Of a stretch of 37,395 bases of DNA, positions 3,474 to 19,475 are shown piece after piece. Each line of letters starts with the position of its first letter. Position 1 is the stretch's first letter. The notes under the pieces are model-generated. The model was not told the DNA's origin and did not search any database. It was given only the letters and a program-made list of their open reading frames with translations. A program made the translations under genes and the position numbers. The stretch spans positions 1 to 37,395 of the forward strand of contig JACMQW010000061.1 of assembly GCA_014376785.1 (NCBI GenBank), read 5' to 3'. This DNA comes from Oligoflexia bacterium. GTDB lineage: Bacteria > Bdellovibrionota > UBA1018.

Positions 3474-4175
3474 TTATCCGTGAAGGGTCAGTTCCACGAT
3501 GGCATACATCACGATGGTTAGAGCGAATCCGCAGTGGATCACTCCTTTCACCGACGTCATCGGACCGGTCTTGCCTTTGATGGCATTCAGCTCCAGAGCG
3601 AGAATGATCACTCCGATTAAGATCGCGCAAAGCATGAAGTGCGAGTTTTCATTCGTGAACACGGTCAGGTTTTTCGCGGCGGCCATAAAGAAAAGCATCG
3701 GAATGGAAAAAAGGACGTTCGTGCGGGATGCGAGCCCGGCTTTTCCTGCTGCAGCGGCGGCTTCGGGTAATGCTTTTCCACCACTCGCGGCGGCGGTGGC
3801 CGATGCGATGACGATTTTCTGATTCGGCCAGATGATCAGCCACACGTTTAGGAACATCACGGTTCCGAGTGCCATCCCGATGAGGATATTTACTCCCCAT
3901 GATGTCGAGAAACTAAATCCCATGTGGGTTCGGCCGATGATGAGCGCGATCCCGAAAATGACCGTGAAAAGCGCTCCATAGCGAAACCACCAGAGTGCGC
4001 GAGGCACTAGCTTTTGAATGGCGTTTGATTTCGTGGCGGCATCTGTTTCAGCGAAGAAAGGTCCTTGGACAAAGTTGAAATAATAAAGAAGTCCGATCCA
4101 AATCACGGAAAAGAATATGTGCATCCAGCGGAGTAGGAACATGATCCCATCCATGGAAAAGAGAGCGATCGTCAT
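3474..4175 (-). CDS. Urate oxidase N-terminal-like membrane protein (PuuD membrane domain)
   Basis: A 233-residue polytopic membrane protein with about six hydrophobic segments. The motifs LLRWMHIFFSVIWIGLLYYFNF near the N-terminus (shown only in part here), RALWWFRYGA and WPNQKIV match the membrane domain of PuuD-type urate hydroxylase (Urate_ox_N). Full PuuD proteins also carry a C-terminal cytochrome c domain with CXXCH; this protein ends after the membrane part and has no CXXCH. It may therefore work with a separate cytochrome, or may not be a urate enzyme at all. No purine-catabolism gene lies beside it. The start ATG at 4175 gives a membrane-entry N-terminus typical of the family. An Ala/Gly-rich loop lies near residues 125-150. 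Confidence 0.72.
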   Translation of the reverse strand: MTIALFSMDGIMFLLRWMHIFFSVIWIGLLYYFNFVQGPFFAETDAATKSNAIQKLVPRALWWFRYGALFTVIFGIALIIGRTHMGFSFSTSWGVNILIGMALGTVMFLNVWLIIWPNQKIVIASATAAASGGKALPEAAAAAGKAGLASRTNVLFSIPMLFFMAAAKNLTVFTNENSHFMLCAILIGVIILALELNAIKGKTGPMTSVKGVIHCGFALTIVMYAIVELTLHG

Positions 4176-4267
4176 AGGAAACTCCTTGAAGAGGGCGGTT
4201 TAAATTTTCGGTGAGATCATAGTCGTCTTGGAGCGTCTCAAAATCAACCGGAATACGGATGGTGGGT

Positions 4268-4417
4268 GGTGGGTCACCTTTCTTTAGGTTTGAAAAATCT
4301 CATGCATTCACACTCGCCGCGCTTCCTGCGCGCGGGGCCCTTTGGGGGGCGCATCGTGAGCTTTCCCCACTCGGTAAATGCATGGGATTTTTCAGACCTA
4401 AAGAAAAGTGACCCACC
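4268..4417. repeat. Structured inverted-repeat element, copy 1
   Basis: Two 41-nt arms (4268-4308 and 4377-4417) pair at 38 of 41 positions; read as + strand RNA, two of the three exceptions are G-U wobbles. They enclose a 68-nt GC-rich centre (4309-4376). The reverse complement of this centre is 62/68 identical to 4678-4745 in copy 2. The centre also contains a short hairpin, GCGC-AGGAA-GCGC in the reverse orientation. No credible gene is seen in it. It lies just upstream of the urate-oxidase-N-like gene. It could be an RNA structure, a DNA cruciform or a non-autonomous mobile element. Confidence 0.85.
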
Positions 4418-4641
4418 TACTCTGGTTGGAATGCTGTCTCGGTTTAGGTGCTTCCAGTGATGCGGTCTCGGAACTTCGTTTTCGTCGAGGAAGAGGCGCT
4501 TACGCGTTAGGCTTTAGAGTCGTTACGCCGCAGTTGGATGGCGCATGAACTTCGCCTGTCGGACTAACCGCGATACCTTCAACCGAGGATTAACGGCAGA
4601 TACCCTAAGCGGAGGAGCACTTGAAGTTGCCTATGAACGAA
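4418..4641. other. Gene-free spacer between the two hairpin elements
   Basis: About 224 bp separate the two inverted elements. I see no gene with coding character, no tRNA and no clear promoter here. Together with 4176-4267 (the upstream region of the gene starting at 4175), the two elements and this spacer form the only gene-free stretch over 300 bp in the window. A purine-rich GGAGGAG near 4611-4617 is the only ribosome-binding-like sequence, and the frame after it does not resemble a protein. Confidence 0.6.
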
Positions 4642-4781
4642 TTTCTCTTTTCTCTCCCGGCCTAAAAAACCCGCATTCACCGAGTGGGGAAAGCGCACGA
4701 TGCGCACCCCAAAGGGCCCCGCGCGCACGATGCGCGGCGAGGGTGAATGCGGGTTTTTTAGGCCGGGAGAGAAAAGAGAAA
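4642..4781. repeat. Structured inverted-repeat element, copy 2 (perfect 40-bp stem)
   Basis: Arms 4642-4681 and 4742-4781 are perfect 40/40 reverse complements around a 60-nt GC-rich loop. The loop contains GCGCACGATGCGC twice (4693-4705 and 4723-4735), each able to fold as a 5-bp hairpin with a CGA loop, plus a CCCC-AAA-GGG segment between them. The central 68 nt (4678-4745) match copy 1 in the opposite orientation. The right arm ends 6 nt from the serB stop codon. It could act as a terminator-like end for the serB transcript, but no T-run follows. Confidence 0.9.
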
Positions 4782-4787
4782 CTCGAC

Positions 4788-5450
4788 CTAAAGCAGATCT
4801 AAAATCTTGGCCAGATTCTTCTCATCGATGCAGTGTTTCGCGTAGGGGCGGAGTTTCGGTTTCGCGCAAAACGCGATTCCGAATGCGGCGGTTTTAAACA
4901 TTTCGATGTCGTTTGCTCCATCACCGACCGCTACGGTGTGGGAAAGAGGAATGCGAAATTTTTTTGCCGCTTCGATCAGTCCGCGTGCTTTTCCATGCGC
5001 ATCGATAATGGGAGGAATGGTTTTTCCGGTGCATTCACCCTCGACGAATTCGAGCCCATTCACCCTGATTTCGTCGACGCCTCCGAGATCACGGGCGTAA
5101 CGTTCGGCGAGCAAATCGAAACCGCCGGACAGAATCGCGATCCGGTGGCCGCGTTTTTTTAATTCTCGAATAAGGTCCTCGGCGCCTGGCATGAGCGGCA
5201 TCCGGTCGTAAACTTCGTCGAGTTCGAGAAGAGTGAGTCCCCGCAAAAGCTCGAGGCGTTCGGTGAACGACTCAGCAAAATCGATTTCTCCTCGCATCGC
5301 CCTTTCGGTAACCTGACTGACTTCATCATAAACACCTCGAGCCCGCGCGAGTTCATCGATTCCTTCGCCATCGACTAGGGTCGAGTCCATGTCGAAAGCG
5401 AAAAGCCCAGGTCGGTCTTTCAAAAAAGAGAGGGCATGAAGGTCGATCAT
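4788..5450 (-). CDS. serB: Phosphoserine phosphatase (SerB)
   Basis: Last step of L-serine synthesis: hydrolysis of O-phospho-L-serine in the cytoplasm. The 220-residue product has the HAD phosphatase motifs of SerB: FAFDMDSTLVDGEGIDE (nucleophile Asp20, acid Asp22), the cap-region glutamate-rich helices, LSGGFD (motif II Ser), a conserved Lys around GKARGL, and VAVGDGANDIEMF (motif III). It lacks the N-terminal ACT-like part of E. coli SerB and matches the shorter single-domain form. The ATG at 5450 is chosen because it starts just before the HAD fold and overlaps the upstream nitrilase stop by 4 bp (ATGA). The gene ends 6 nt from the large hairpin element. Confidence 0.93.
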   Translation of the reverse strand: MIDLHALSFLKDRPGLFAFDMDSTLVDGEGIDELARARGVYDEVSQVTERAMRGEIDFAESFTERLELLRGLTLLELDEVYDRMPLMPGAEDLIRELKKRGHRIAILSGGFDLLAERYARDLGGVDEIRVNGLEFVEGECTGKTIPPIIDAHGKARGLIEAAKKFRIPLSHTVAVGDGANDIEMFKTAAFGIAFCAKPKLRPYAKHCIDEKNLAKILDLL

Positions 5451-12659: not shown

Positions 12660-12688
12660 TTGTTAAATAACGCGGGCGTTGGTATCCC
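12660..12688 (+). promoter_or_regulatory. Possible sigma-70-like promoter of the large secreted protein gene
   Basis: TTGTTA (12660-12665) and TATCCC (12683-12688) are separated by 17 bp, ending 28 bp before the start codon. The paralogous gene at 17860-19449 has the same TTGTTA with 17-bp spacing at nearly the same distance, and the same G-run plus GCAAAAA ribosome-binding leader. The -10 match is weak, so the support comes mainly from the shared layout. Confidence 0.35.
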
Positions 12689-12716
12689 AGCGATGCCTCT
12701 TAGGGGGGGCAAAAAC

Positions 12717-14612
12717 ATGAGTGATTTCCGCCTGAATCGATCCCGTGTCTTAGGAACTTCGATACTCGCTACGCTTGCTCTCCTCAGCCAAGCATTCCTC
12801 CTCTCTTCTGCCTACGCAGTCCCATCGAACATCGAAGCTTGGCGGGATGACCAGCATGGAATCATCGTCTATAAAGATGAAGATCCCGACAGCGGCACTT
12901 ACTGGTTTATTCCTAAAATTCGTTTTGAAGCGGTGAATGGGAAAACGCTCTTAAGAAAGACCGAATTATCAAACGGAAATACGGAAGTTCTGGTCCGAAT
13001 CATTCCTTATTTCTCAGATGCTTTCAGACAGCTGGCGGCTCGAAATATTTCGAACATTCGCCAACTTTCCCAACTGAAGCCGGTGATCGCTAAAAACATC
13101 GGGATTACCCTCCCTGATTTCAGTTACAAATTTTCATCCTCCAACGTCACAAACTTCCAGTACCTGGACGCTCCTCGTTTGCTGAAATTTTCGCTCACTC
13201 CGGATGAACTCACCACTTTCGACCTTCTGTACGGCGATGCTTCGGGAATCAACGTTGATTTCTCCATCGCCTACGACGGCGTGATCACGGATAAATTCTA
13301 CAACATCGCCATTAGCTGTAAGAGTGTCGCTGATCAATTGGGTTACGGAACCGGGCCTGGTTCAGGGGTCGGAGTAAACGCAAAAGTAAAAGGTGTCGGC
13401 GTTTACCTCGGAGCCGATGTCGAATCTGCCTTCATTCGCACGGTGTCGAATAGCACCAAGGGCGTCGATGTTGTTTCCAAAGGGGATACGGCGGGAATGG
13501 CAAAAATGCTCACCCAAGTGATGCAACTTTGCTTTGAGCCGATTAAATCGGCCGATGACGATCGTTACGGGTCCTATTACGACGACCGCTACCGAAATGA
13601 TGACGACCCTTACGGAGATAAGAAGAACACCCAAGACGATTACGACCCTTTTAAAACCCACACGGGTGATGTGCTCCCGGGTAAGGACGGCGTAAAGCCG
13701 GGTGATTCTGACCTCGGTACCGACGGTAAGGGCGGCGTCGACCCAAGCACGGGCGTAGACGACTCCGGTTATCCAAAAGACCGCAGCGGTAAGGGAAGCA
13801 GCGCGGGAAGTAACGAACCGGGCTTCATGAACCGAATGTCGAGTAGCGTAACGGGGGCTTACAAGATCCAGGCGGAGAAGGAAGCACTCGCACTCGATCG
13901 AATCTATCAAACGCTCGATATGAGCCGTTCGATGAACGAACTCATGGACCAAACCAATCCAGGTCGTGATCGAAGCGACGACGGAGACGTCGCCGGTGGC
14001 GGACTCCTTCCGGCCGCGGCTGCGAAACTTCACTGGAAGATCAAAAAAATCAGCGTGAACTCGAAAAACCAAGCGGTCGTAAAAAACGTCACCTTGAAAG
14101 ATTCGACCGCGACGGTGGTGATCCCGGGATACCTCTCTGAGAAGAGCAAAGCAGTCGAGAAAGTCACCATCACGAGTCTCGGAGAAAAGAAGTACTTCGT
14201 AAAATCGACGAACAACTCTGCTTTGCCGCTGCAAACGAAGATTTTCGTTAAAACGGGAGAGCAGTGGTCCATCAATGCGGCTTTCGTTTTTAAAGCGAAG
14301 TCCGGGTACTCCCCATGGGAAACGAAGCAGTACATCTGGGATTCGTCTTGGGATAAGGCAGACGGCGACTTGTACTTCCGAGTCGGGAATGGTCACTGGA
14401 CGCCGGTAAACGGACGCTCGATTATTGAATCGGGAGTGATTGCCGGAGGCGAGCTCCAGTTTTACCTCGATCGGTCTTCGATCTTTAACAAGATCCCGGA
14501 AGACCTCCGAACGTCCCACTGGTATTCGCTGCGAGGTCCGATGTATTCACTCGACGGTCTGGCACCCGAATTTTTAGTCCAGATCTCGGGACGTCGGATG
14601 CAGTTAAAATAA
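12717..14612 (+). CDS. Large secreted protein, paralog A of an unrecognised family
   Basis: No known family is recognised. The 631-residue product has a signal peptide (about residues 1-36, cleaved near SAYA-VPSN). An N-terminal module (about 37-285) shares many segments with the protein at 17860-19449: AWRDDQHGI, WFIPKIRFE, RIIPYFSDA, LKPVIAKNIGITLPDF, NFQYLDAPRLLKF and FSIAYDGVITDKFY. A low-complexity linker rich in Asp, Tyr and Gly follows (about 280-400, with GYPKDRSG near 350). The C-terminal beta-rich module (about 430-631) also has counterparts in the paralog (WTPVNGRS, GGELQFYLD, EFLVQISGRR). ATG 12717 is chosen because a run of seven G lies about 7 nt upstream and the signal peptide begins there. 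Likely periplasmic or surface located; function unknown. Confidence 0.85.
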   Translation: MSDFRLNRSRVLGTSILATLALLSQAFLLSSAYAVPSNIEAWRDDQHGIIVYKDEDPDSGTYWFIPKIRFEAVNGKTLLRKTELSNGNTEVLVRIIPYFSDAFRQLAARNISNIRQLSQLKPVIAKNIGITLPDFSYKFSSSNVTNFQYLDAPRLLKFSLTPDELTTFDLLYGDASGINVDFSIAYDGVITDKFYNIAISCKSVADQLGYGTGPGSGVGVNAKVKGVGVYLGADVESAFIRTVSNSTKGVDVVSKGDTAGMAKMLTQVMQLCFEPIKSADDDRYGSYYDDRYRNDDDPYGDKKNTQDDYDPFKTHTGDVLPGKDGVKPGDSDLGTDGKGGVDPSTGVDDSGYPKDRSGKGSSAGSNEPGFMNRMSSSVTGAYKIQAEKEALALDRIYQTLDMSRSMNELMDQTNPGRDRSDDGDVAGGGLLPAAAAKLHWKIKKISVNSKNQAVVKNVTLKDSTATVVIPGYLSEKSKAVEKVTITSLGEKKYFVKSTNNSALPLQTKIFVKTGEQWSINAAFVFKAKSGYSPWETKQYIWDSSWDKADGDLYFRVGNGHWTPVNGRSIIESGVIAGGELQFYLDRSSIFNKIPEDLRTSHWYSLRGPMYSLDGLAPEFLVQISGRRMQLK

Positions 14613-17056: not shown

Positions 17057-17863
17057 ATGAACATTGTCATTACGGGCGCAAGCGACGGTATTGGTAAGGG
17101 AATGGCATTGGCTTTTGCTCGTCGGGGGGCGCGACTGGGGCTCATCGCGCGCAGAGGTGAGTTACTCGAAGCACTGGCGATCGAACTCCGTACGGTGGGA
17201 TCGCCTGAGGTTCTTACGGCGGCGGTCGACGTCACGGATTATTCTGCCACGCGCGCTGCGCTTTCGGCTTTCGACGAAACTTTTGGCGGCGAGCCCGGCG
17301 GAATCTCCCACCTCGTTTTGAACGCAGGCATTTCGGGACGAGCGGCGCCATGGGAAGATTCATGGCCGGAGATCAAGCGTTGTTTTGACGTGAATGTTCT
17401 CGCGGCTTTGAATTCGGCGGAGTGGATGAAGGCGAAAATGGTCGGACGTCGCCGGGGAACGATCGCCGGCATTTCCAGCGTCGCCGCGACGCGTGGACTT
17501 CCGGACTCGGGAGCTTATTCCGCGAGCAAAGCTGCGATCACGACTTACCTCGAAAGCTTGAGGGTCGATCTCGCGGCCTATGGCGTAAAAGTGGTGACCG
17601 TTGCGCCCGGCTACATTCGCACTGCTTTGACGGCAAAAAACCGGGGCACCATGCCTTTCCTCATGGATGCTGACCGTGCCGGAGAGATTTTTGCCGAAGG
17701 AATTCTAGCGGGCAAACCTTTCGTAGTAGCACCCTGGCCTTACGTCTGGATCATTCGCCTCCTGCGTATTTTACCTCGGTCGGTTTATGACTTTGCCATT
17801 CGACGGTCCGTTAAATCCGTCCGCGGTGAAACACCCGAACAGCGTCGAGCGCGCGGGGCTTAG
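17057..17863 (+). CDS. Short-chain dehydrogenase/reductase (classical SDR)
   Basis: A 268-residue NAD(P)-dependent oxidoreductase. Motifs are VITGASDGIGKGMA (cofactor-binding TGxxxGxG), VLNAGISG (NNAG equivalent), GISSVAATRG (catalytic Ser), GAYSASKAAI (YxxxK, catalytic Tyr and Lys) and VAPGYIRT (PG motif). Arg residues after the first strand (IARRGE) suggest NADP preference. The C-terminus has a hydrophobic stretch (PWPYVWIIRLLRIL) that may touch the membrane, as in SDRs acting on lipids. The ATG at 17057 is used because the glycine-rich motif starts at residue 6. The gene overlaps the convergent paralog B gene by 4 bp. Confidence 0.93.
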   Translation: MNIVITGASDGIGKGMALAFARRGARLGLIARRGELLEALAIELRTVGSPEVLTAAVDVTDYSATRAALSAFDETFGGEPGGISHLVLNAGISGRAAPWEDSWPEIKRCFDVNVLAALNSAEWMKAKMVGRRRGTIAGISSVAATRGLPDSGAYSASKAAITTYLESLRVDLAAYGVKVVTVAPGYIRTALTAKNRGTMPFLMDADRAGEIFAEGILAGKPFVVAPWPYVWIIRLLRILPRSVYDFAIRRSVKSVRGETPEQRRARGA

Positions 17864-19449
17864 CGGTTAGCGAGAGACGAAGTTCCGTTACGAATCTTCT
17901 TCGCCACCACTTGGACTGTGAACTCTGCTTCAGGAACCGCACCGAAGAATTTATACTTTGCAGGCAGTGCTTTGCGAAGCGCCACCGCATCGATTTGAAA
18001 CTGAAGCGCACCACCGCGTGCGATGTCGGAGTCGATCGTAAAATACCGATTCACAGGCCTCCAATCATCGCTGCCAATTCGGTACGCGAGGAAGGAATCG
18101 AGCGAAGGGCTCGCCTGCGCAAGCGTGACAAAGCTGTCGCCTGATTTTACCCGGTAACTCGCTTGAACAGTGTACTGAATCCCTCGCTCAATTTTCAATC
18201 CGGTGTTCGTTGGACGATTTCCGAGAACTGCTGTCTTTAATACTAAAAGACTCGTAGAAATGGTTTGCACGAGAGAGCGTGGTTCGACGGGAGCAGATTT
18301 TTTCAGCGCACTCATCACGACCGCCGTGCTCACGGAGTCCGCCATATTCACGTGTTTGATCGCTGCTTGCCGAGTCTGATTGTCGACCGATTTCTTGAAA
18401 CGGTACCTTAAGCGGGCCGAGGCTTTTGCGAGTAGTGTCCCGTCTCGGTTTGGCTCCAAGCAGGTCGAATCGGTTTGGCAAATTCGATCGTCCACCGGAT
18501 CCGAATTGCGCTCGTAGGATGCGAGAGGCTGGAAGCAAAAATCCAGAGTCGAACGCAGGGCATCGCTCATCGCGGATAAATCACCTTTTGACACGATGTC
18601 GATCCCGCCTAAATTATTTTGGACGGCCTTTTTATAGGCCGCTTCTAGGGTTGCACCTAAAAAGCTTTGCGTCCCTCCTTCCACACCAAATCCGCCGTTA
18701 TGGCTGAGCGCTTCGCTCATGTCTTTGCAGCTCACGGAGATTTGGTAATACTTGTCCCGCACCACTCCGTCGTAAGAAATCGTGAACGAAACTGGAACTC
18801 CGTAAGCATCGTCTAGCAATTGTTGAAAAAGACCCGCGTCTTCTTCGGCGATGTGGAAACGGAAAAGCCGGGGGATATTCAAGTACTGGATGTTCGTGCT
18901 CGCCACGACTGGATCGGGAGTTTGACTAGTTCGACCAAATCCTCCACTTGCATAGCCCCCGCTTCGGTCTGCGGGATAACCGGCATCGTCCGATGTGGAC
19001 GCACTCGCCTTCGTACTCGTGTCGGGAAGATCGTTAGTGGGGGCTTCTGTCGTGAGCTTTGCTCCGAAGTCGGGAAGGGCGACGCCGATATTGCGAGCGA
19101 TGACGGGTCTGAGCTGCGACTCCATCCTGATTTCCGATAGATCCGCGAAGATCTTTTCGCGAACCAAGTCGGAGAGGTAGGGAATGATTCTCGGGGCGTA
19201 TTCCGTTTCGCCATTTGCGAGGGTGTGAGGGCGTAAAACCGTTTGCCCGCCTGCGGATTCAAATCGAATCTGGGGGATGTACCAGAAGACCGCGGGATCC
19301 AGCTCGTCGTGATAAACGGTCACCCCACTTTTTTCATCTTTCCAAGCTTGCTGGTTGGAGGGCGCAGCCTTTCCATCCAGCGAGAACATTTCGAGCGTCA
19401 CTAAAACAGCGAGACCACCGAGCCGAAGACGATTGGAAGTTGGATTCAT
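17860..19449 (-). CDS. Large secreted protein, paralog B of the same unrecognised family
   Basis: A 529-residue product with a signal peptide (about 1-27, MNPTSNRLRLGGL to KAAP) and the same N-terminal module as the protein at 12717: AWKDEKSGV, WYIPQIRFE, RIIPYLSDL, LRPVIARNIGVALPDF, IQYLNIPRLFRF and FTISYDGVVRDKYY. The C-terminal module again shows WRPVNRYF, GGALQFQID and EFTVQV. Unlike paralog A, the Gly/Ser/Asp-rich insert containing GYPADRSG lies inside the N-terminal module near residue 153, and the Asp/Tyr-rich linker is absent. ATG 19449 is chosen because GGGGGAG lies about 7 nt upstream and the signal peptide starts there; a further in-frame start five codons upstream is less likely. 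Function unknown. Confidence 0.85.
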   Translation of the reverse strand: MNPTSNRLRLGGLAVLVTLEMFSLDGKAAPSNQQAWKDEKSGVTVYHDELDPAVFWYIPQIRFESAGGQTVLRPHTLANGETEYAPRIIPYLSDLVREKIFADLSEIRMESQLRPVIARNIGVALPDFGAKLTTEAPTNDLPDTSTKASASTSDDAGYPADRSGGYASGGFGRTSQTPDPVVASTNIQYLNIPRLFRFHIAEEDAGLFQQLLDDAYGVPVSFTISYDGVVRDKYYQISVSCKDMSEALSHNGGFGVEGGTQSFLGATLEAAYKKAVQNNLGGIDIVSKGDLSAMSDALRSTLDFCFQPLASYERNSDPVDDRICQTDSTCLEPNRDGTLLAKASARLRYRFKKSVDNQTRQAAIKHVNMADSVSTAVVMSALKKSAPVEPRSLVQTISTSLLVLKTAVLGNRPTNTGLKIERGIQYTVQASYRVKSGDSFVTLAQASPSLDSFLAYRIGSDDWRPVNRYFTIDSDIARGGALQFQIDAVALRKALPAKYKFFGAVPEAEFTVQVVAKKIRNGTSSLANR

Positions 19450-19475
19450 TTTTTGCTCCCCCATCGAGCCCCTTG

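Follow-up and report, generated by a model that had tools for sequence, protein, structure and literature searches.

Between a serB-like gene and a urate-oxidase-N-like gene, both on the minus strand of the window (the whole stretch of DNA analysed, 37,395 nucleotides), lie two long hairpins in inverted orientation; their centres are nearly the same, and their outer stems differ in sequence yet each pairs with its own partner. How can both arms of a hairpin change and still match each other, and is this pairing kept through an RNA or in the DNA itself? The answer that we regard as likely is that the two hairpins belong to a family of intergenic DNA hairpins, the arms of which are made and refreshed by template switching during replication and the heads of which spread within genomes. 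The locus comprises the following features:

3474-4175, minus strand: flanking gene, urate oxidase N-terminal-like membrane protein (PF06181)
4176-4267, minus strand: surviving native leader of this downstream gene, resembling the serB-to-urate-oxidase-like intergenic region in two congeners
4268-4417, minus strand: copy 1, whole hairpin
4268-4308, minus strand: copy 1, outer arm (41 bp), pairing at 38 of 41 positions with 4377-4417
4309-4376, minus strand: copy 1, conserved head (68 nt) in minus-strand orientation; covariance model match at 4303-4382, minus, 89.8 bits
4377-4417, minus strand: copy 1, partner arm (41 bp), delimited by arm pairing
4418-4641, no strand: spacer separating the two copies, bearing no relation to the spacers of other pairs; pair and spacer are absent here in three relatives
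4642-4781 (or 4638-4785 with one mismatch), plus strand: copy 2, whole hairpin
4642-4681, plus strand: copy 2, outer arm (40 bp) with an A6 tract, pairing at 40 of 40 positions with 4742-4781
4682-4741, plus strand: copy 2, conserved head (60 nt); covariance model match at 4672-4751, plus, 98.2 bits
4686-4710, plus strand: head hairpin 1 of copy 2, GGGG-AA-AGCGCACGATGCGCA-CCCC (25 nt), loop CACGATG, from the sequence and helix counts
4720-4739, plus strand: head hairpin 2 of copy 2, loop CACGATG, from the sequence and helix counts
4742-4781, plus strand: copy 2, partner arm with a T6 tract, starting ~6 nt beyond the stop codon of the neighbouring minus-strand gene
4788-5450, minus strand: flanking gene, HAD phosphatase (serB-like; PF00702/PF12710)

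The locus and its hairpin family

The first-pass annotation of this locus had described two inverted hairpins with 62 of 68 central nucleotides identical, 40 of 40 pairs in the arms of copy 2 and, in those of copy 1, 38 of 41 with two wobbles when read as plus-strand RNA. Both hairpins are present at these positions, and both of their strands fold much more stably than dinucleotide-shuffled sequence (z-scores of -11.8 to -15.2); the arm counts are reproduced exactly, the minus strand of copy 1 having a single G-U and a pair of A-C mismatches as its three exceptions, of which the A-C mismatches become the two wobbles of the plus strand, and the central identity is consistent with an inverted match of 78 nt at 92% between 4304-4381 and 4673-4750. 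In the relatives G002, G001 and G003, serB likewise precedes a urate-oxidase-like gene, the product of which is 80%, 77% and 64% identical, respectively, to that of the window. In these three genomes the two genes are separated by ~60-97 nt, versus ~612 nt in the window, where a native-looking leader is still present after copy 1; both hairpins, together with their spacer, were thus inserted at the locus in the window's lineage, either as one unit or stepwise. Elsewhere in the window, 12660-14612 (plus) and 17860-19464 (minus) encode two large, paralogue-like proteins with a common stretch of approximately AxPSNxxAWxDxxxGxxVYxDExDP.

A search for the centre of the hairpins in the genome and its relatives, as the first-pass annotation had proposed, returns many copies of a dispersed family. 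In the genome of the window (G000; 3.22 Mb in 103 contigs, only ~97% complete), queries with each of the two copies, followed by a covariance-model search, recover 14 full copies, a rearranged one (C83:20062) and a diverged one beside a tRNA (C96:4587). All full copies carry the same head, CGAGTGGGGAAAGCGCACGATGCGCTCCCCAAAGGGNCCCGCGCGCACGATGCGCGTCGAG or near it, each within its own inverted repeat, and the plan of the element is that of a conserved head of 55-70 nt, made of two hairpins with CA(C/G)GATG loops, standing on a copy-specific stem of 20-45 bp. A survey of 355 kb of G000 for inverted repeats with an arm score of 15 or more found only 18, 15 of which are the head element (of the other three, two are hairpins with short loops and one is formed by paired parS-like sites), and chance is thereby excluded as the origin of the hairpins. 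Two neighbouring GTTCCACGTGGAAC sites, parS-like, lie at C14:40958-41151 of the same genome (L098 958-1151), and the head at C83:20034-20239 (L082) has two extra hairpins (GATACATCCTGTATC, ACAGCCCTTTAGGGCTGT).

The congener G002 shows the identical layout with another head consensus, and no copies were found in the genome of the congener G001 when it was searched for the head element. Copies in G000 and G002 often stand as inverted pairs, the left copy being on the minus strand and the right copy on the plus strand in nine of nine pairs; the spacers compared are unrelated to one another, and a common cargo is rejected on that ground. In the same order, genus g26 has about 37 matches in G032, 20 in G040 and 17 in G039, and all 48 g26-type copies examined are outside called genes. 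In genus g89, which belongs to another family of the same phylum, most folded hits share the plan, with a third head hairpin and long arms that vary from copy to copy, and a search with one g89 element gives matches to the head region in no fewer than 19 of the 24 species. The two-loop pattern (GCASGATGC, gap, GCASGATGC) occurs in 20 of the 369 genomes available for the phylum; its reversed control hits almost nothing. Since orthologous copies are present in independent assemblies, the hairpins are not an assembly artefact; they form a phylum-wide family of intergenic, non-coding DNA elements in which the head is conserved and the two arms of each copy match each other. At G049 C328:976 (L149), in another genus of the family, three CAGGATG head hairpins stand on AT-rich arms, and at G220 C7:414971-415112 (L275), in yet another genus, GCAGGATGC hairpins are arranged in tandem at a spacing of 44-45 bp.

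An exact head 17-mer has 27 hits among 84,980 genomes, none of them in a comparable long-armed element, and these are taken as chance. Plasmid records contain no match to the element, and Rfam at the gathering score gives no match within the window. The first-pass annotation knew of no named repeat family or RNA with such a layout, and none has been found here: the parts are of known kinds, and their combination could not be matched to any named family.

Mirrored change in the arms

Over the arm pairs of 23 elements, 762 aligned positions comprise 728 Watson-Crick pairs, 10 G-U, 10 A-C, 13 other combinations and one gap. Selection on an RNA would favour G-U, which is no commoner in the arms than A-C, and the pairing thus appears to be kept at the level of DNA. 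The suggestion of the first-pass annotation that base-pairing is maintained or that stems are rebuilt separately finds support on both counts, with arms that are specific to each copy and pairing kept through paired changes; what is not supported is arm pairing as a sign of a selected RNA. The covariation test that it called for gives, for the whole structure in the 15 full-length g26 copies of G032, a score of 0.335 versus 0.136 in shuffles, and in the same copies 19 of 27 inner-arm pairs are altered on both sides with almost no one-sided wobbles. Changes on both sides with almost no wobble intermediates argue for arm copying at the level of DNA.

The arms of different copies show a weak, significant similarity in both G000 and g26 (0 of 300 shuffles being as high), which suggests that many arms diverged from common arms in step and that not all were built afresh from flanks. 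In the related copies C76:23386 and C97:24833, the head is identical and the outer arms are unrelated. At one g26 orthologous site (L185 versus L205), the ends and most of the head are kept and the near-perfect arms are wholly different between the two species, a whole-arm exchange that could also have arisen if one copy had converted another. At a g89 orthologous site in G189, G192 and G196 (84-91% gene identity), all differences in the ~30-bp arms are mirrored and none is unmirrored: G189 and G192 differ by three substitutions, each on both sides, and G192 and G196 by six substitutions and one indel, all on both sides. At the valS element (three species) and at the L190/L210 and L205/L212 orthologues, arm changes are mostly unmirrored, so that correction is intermittent and not constant. 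Most likely, then, an arm is re-copied from its partner during DNA replication, rather than held in place by selection on an RNA.

That the element is transcribed into a structured RNA, such as a stabiliser in the 3'-UTR or a terminator, with selection for RNA pairing driving stepwise compensatory change in both arms and head, is an unlikely explanation of the family. The covariation on which it builds is real in both parts, the head helices covarying in G000 and among the g26 copies; the copies are intergenic, many of them just past gene ends, and about half, as read from their sequence, have A-tract/T-tract arms like those of bidirectional terminators, copy 2 having its T tract on the minus strand. 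On the modelled strand of the G000 heads, moreover, hairpin 1 tolerates G-U, with 14 G-U versus 1 A-C (hairpin 2 has 2 versus 4; combined 16 versus 5, p=0.027), which is weak evidence that one head strand may be read as a single strand, be it RNA or DNA. However, the arms have no such excess of G-U and the inner arms almost no wobble intermediates, whole blocks change on both sides with an indel included, the G-U-tolerant head strand is usually antisense to the upstream gene in G000, and a simple terminator scan is barely above shuffles. A strict rule that the head is always sense to the upstream gene fails in g26, where copies in tandem settings follow the sense of that gene in 17 cases and run against it in 9. 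It is possible that the head acts as a terminator, an mRNA end or a protein-binding site; a CsrA-binding hairpin is rejected for copy 2, both loops of which read CACGATG, without GGA.

Birth of the palindromes and movement of the heads

At one gene junction of g89, the species G207, G199 and G200 carry a short ordinary terminator, which in G202 (its adjoining gene being 93% identical to that of G200) is extended into a near-perfect palindrome of ~40 bp. The right arm of this palindrome is homologous to the native flank of G200 and the left arm is its inverse copy; head-bearing elements occupy the same junction in G210, G189, G192 and G196. This junction, at which the mirrored arm differences among G189, G192 and G196 were counted, provides the strongest evidence, and its pattern is the one that replication template switching predicts. 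The valS element of g26 is orthologous in three species, and its gene-side arm includes valS codons while the far side is their inverted copy; because element-free relatives have a comparable valS end, the gene-side arm came first and the far arm is the copy. Template switching is documented to create and repair perfect stems (PMC8794818), and both of its expected traces are found here, namely arms that are inverted copies of neighbouring native sequence (at G200/G202 and valS) and multi-base mirrored changes with no excess of wobbles.

It is improbable that, instead, long palindromes existed first and each site then received a head at the tip of its palindrome. Boundaries that are symmetric between related copies would fit such insertion, as would the terminator hairpins at the g89 sites of element-free species and the one headless long palindrome of G202, but almost no headless long palindromes exist in the 355 kb surveyed in G000, and pre-existing palindromes are rejected for that genome. 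Its long inverted repeats being nearly all the element, the arms were not ready-made palindromes.

In g26, the head resides inside miniature transposons. The 15 copies share 198-bp units with terminal inverted repeats (AACTGGC..TTTGARTGGGCA and AACTGGC..CTTTGARTGGGCA) that match the ends of a ~1.0-kb insertion sequence, present in autonomous form in G039 and G040; G032 has transposase copies, several other head-bearing genomes also have this transposase, and 20 of the 55 genomes in the order contain relatives of the insertion sequence. Its 303-aa transposase resembles that of IS1, with a weak match to the NCBIfam IS1 model (24.7 bits for a cut-off of 100) and no match in Pfam. The ~1.0-kb elements lie at G040 C8:3648-4655 and C35:6333-7341 and at G039 C16:4845-5852 (L222, L229, L233), with ends of 23-24 bp and no visible target duplication, and at G032 C1:185062 (L234) both head hairpins are deleted from a full-length MITE whose long arms match. 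Outward copying of the flank past the g26 MITE ends is rejected, as complementarity drops after about 4 positions.

That the copies in general are MITEs of an IS1-like transposon with long palindromes, their arm symmetry being a by-product of age structure, is a doubtful possibility, although the g26 units and their matching insertion sequence speak for it. The transposase is absent from G000, at ~97% completeness of this genome, and reduced in the congener G002 to a single copy with a stop; no autonomous transposon with g26 ends is found in G000, where the end pattern gives one isolated hit, and the G000 copies have neither shared terminal inverted repeats nor any common sequence at their outer ends. 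Target duplication is absent even in g26 (0 of 15 copies), and ordinary transposition does not mutate two arms in step. The first-pass annotation had reasoned that shared arms would point to a local duplication or an IS-derived repeat, which holds for some g26 copies, those being MITEs, and not for the window's genome, where the arms are unique to each copy. Rather unlikely, too, is a mobile DNA copied via a folded single strand, which would keep the head and one arm and rebuild the second; copies would then be born as perfect palindromes with arms of their own, and the inserted unit would be the inverted pair with its spacer.

Proposed mechanism and known systems

Under template switching, which we prefer, the nascent strand would fold back at a hairpin during DNA replication, copy one arm or flank into the other side and then return to its template; we infer this enzymatic route from the pattern of change in the arms. 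Ordinary gene-end terminator hairpins would seed the growth of arms, probably as a general rule, the passage from terminator to head-bearing element not being seen as a series. Between refresh events, the arms would decay through ordinary mutation, perfect pairing being restored from time to time. The head would spread within genomes, in g26 inside MITEs with IS1-like transposon ends, and at the window locus a pair with its spacer was added between serB and the urate-oxidase-like gene. Conservation of the head probably reflects its recognition by some factor.

Covariation in stems is routinely taken as proof of a functional RNA; here, strong covariation is better explained by arm copying at the level of DNA. 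The family can thus be used to calibrate RNA discovery, with controls that are built in (head versus arms, G-U versus A-C), and it supplies natural before-and-after sites for the birth and upkeep of palindromes. It also raises the question of what conserves CA(C/G)GATG heads phylum-wide while their surroundings change.

The double-hairpin elements of fungal mitochondria (Allomyces) are mobile and have stems that vary yet still pair; they are mitochondrial and much shorter than the present element, and we know of none with long unique arms. Bacterial MITEs resemble the family in g26, where the units that carry the head have terminal inverted repeats in common and correspond to an insertion sequence, and differ from it in the G000 copies without shared ends, the lack of target duplications and the arms that vary in step. 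In comparison with the IS1 family, the g26 transposase gives a weak model match, far below the family cut-off, and there is no target duplication around the g26 copies.

REP/REPIN elements (PMC3116915, PMC3733652) are likewise multi-copy intergenic hairpins of bacteria, with genome-specific variants and frequent inverted pairs, and their spacers also show compensatory changes (PMC3116915). That the present elements are REP/REPIN-like, with a RAYT (Y1) transposase moving them in the form of single-stranded hairpins, is nevertheless highly improbable: such transposases are common in other family members, but a PF01797 search of the window's genus (G000, itself ~97% complete, G001 and G002) is negative, on which ground RAYT mobilisation is rejected, and the layout is the opposite, REPINs having conserved ends and a variable middle, whereas here the centre is conserved and the ends are unique. 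Among relatives of the genus, Y1 (RAYT-like) transposases give 7 matches in G003, 10 in G004 and 21 in G024. The closest parallel to the behaviour of the arms lies in template-switch hairpins (PMC8794818) and the correction of quasipalindromes in Escherichia coli (PMC7202029), in which an inverted copy of the flank yields a perfect stem in one step and later events restore its pairing, with multi-base compensatory changes and no wobble intermediates. Unlike these known cases, which are single loci or RNA genes, the hairpins described here belong to a family of dispersed repeats whose head is conserved.
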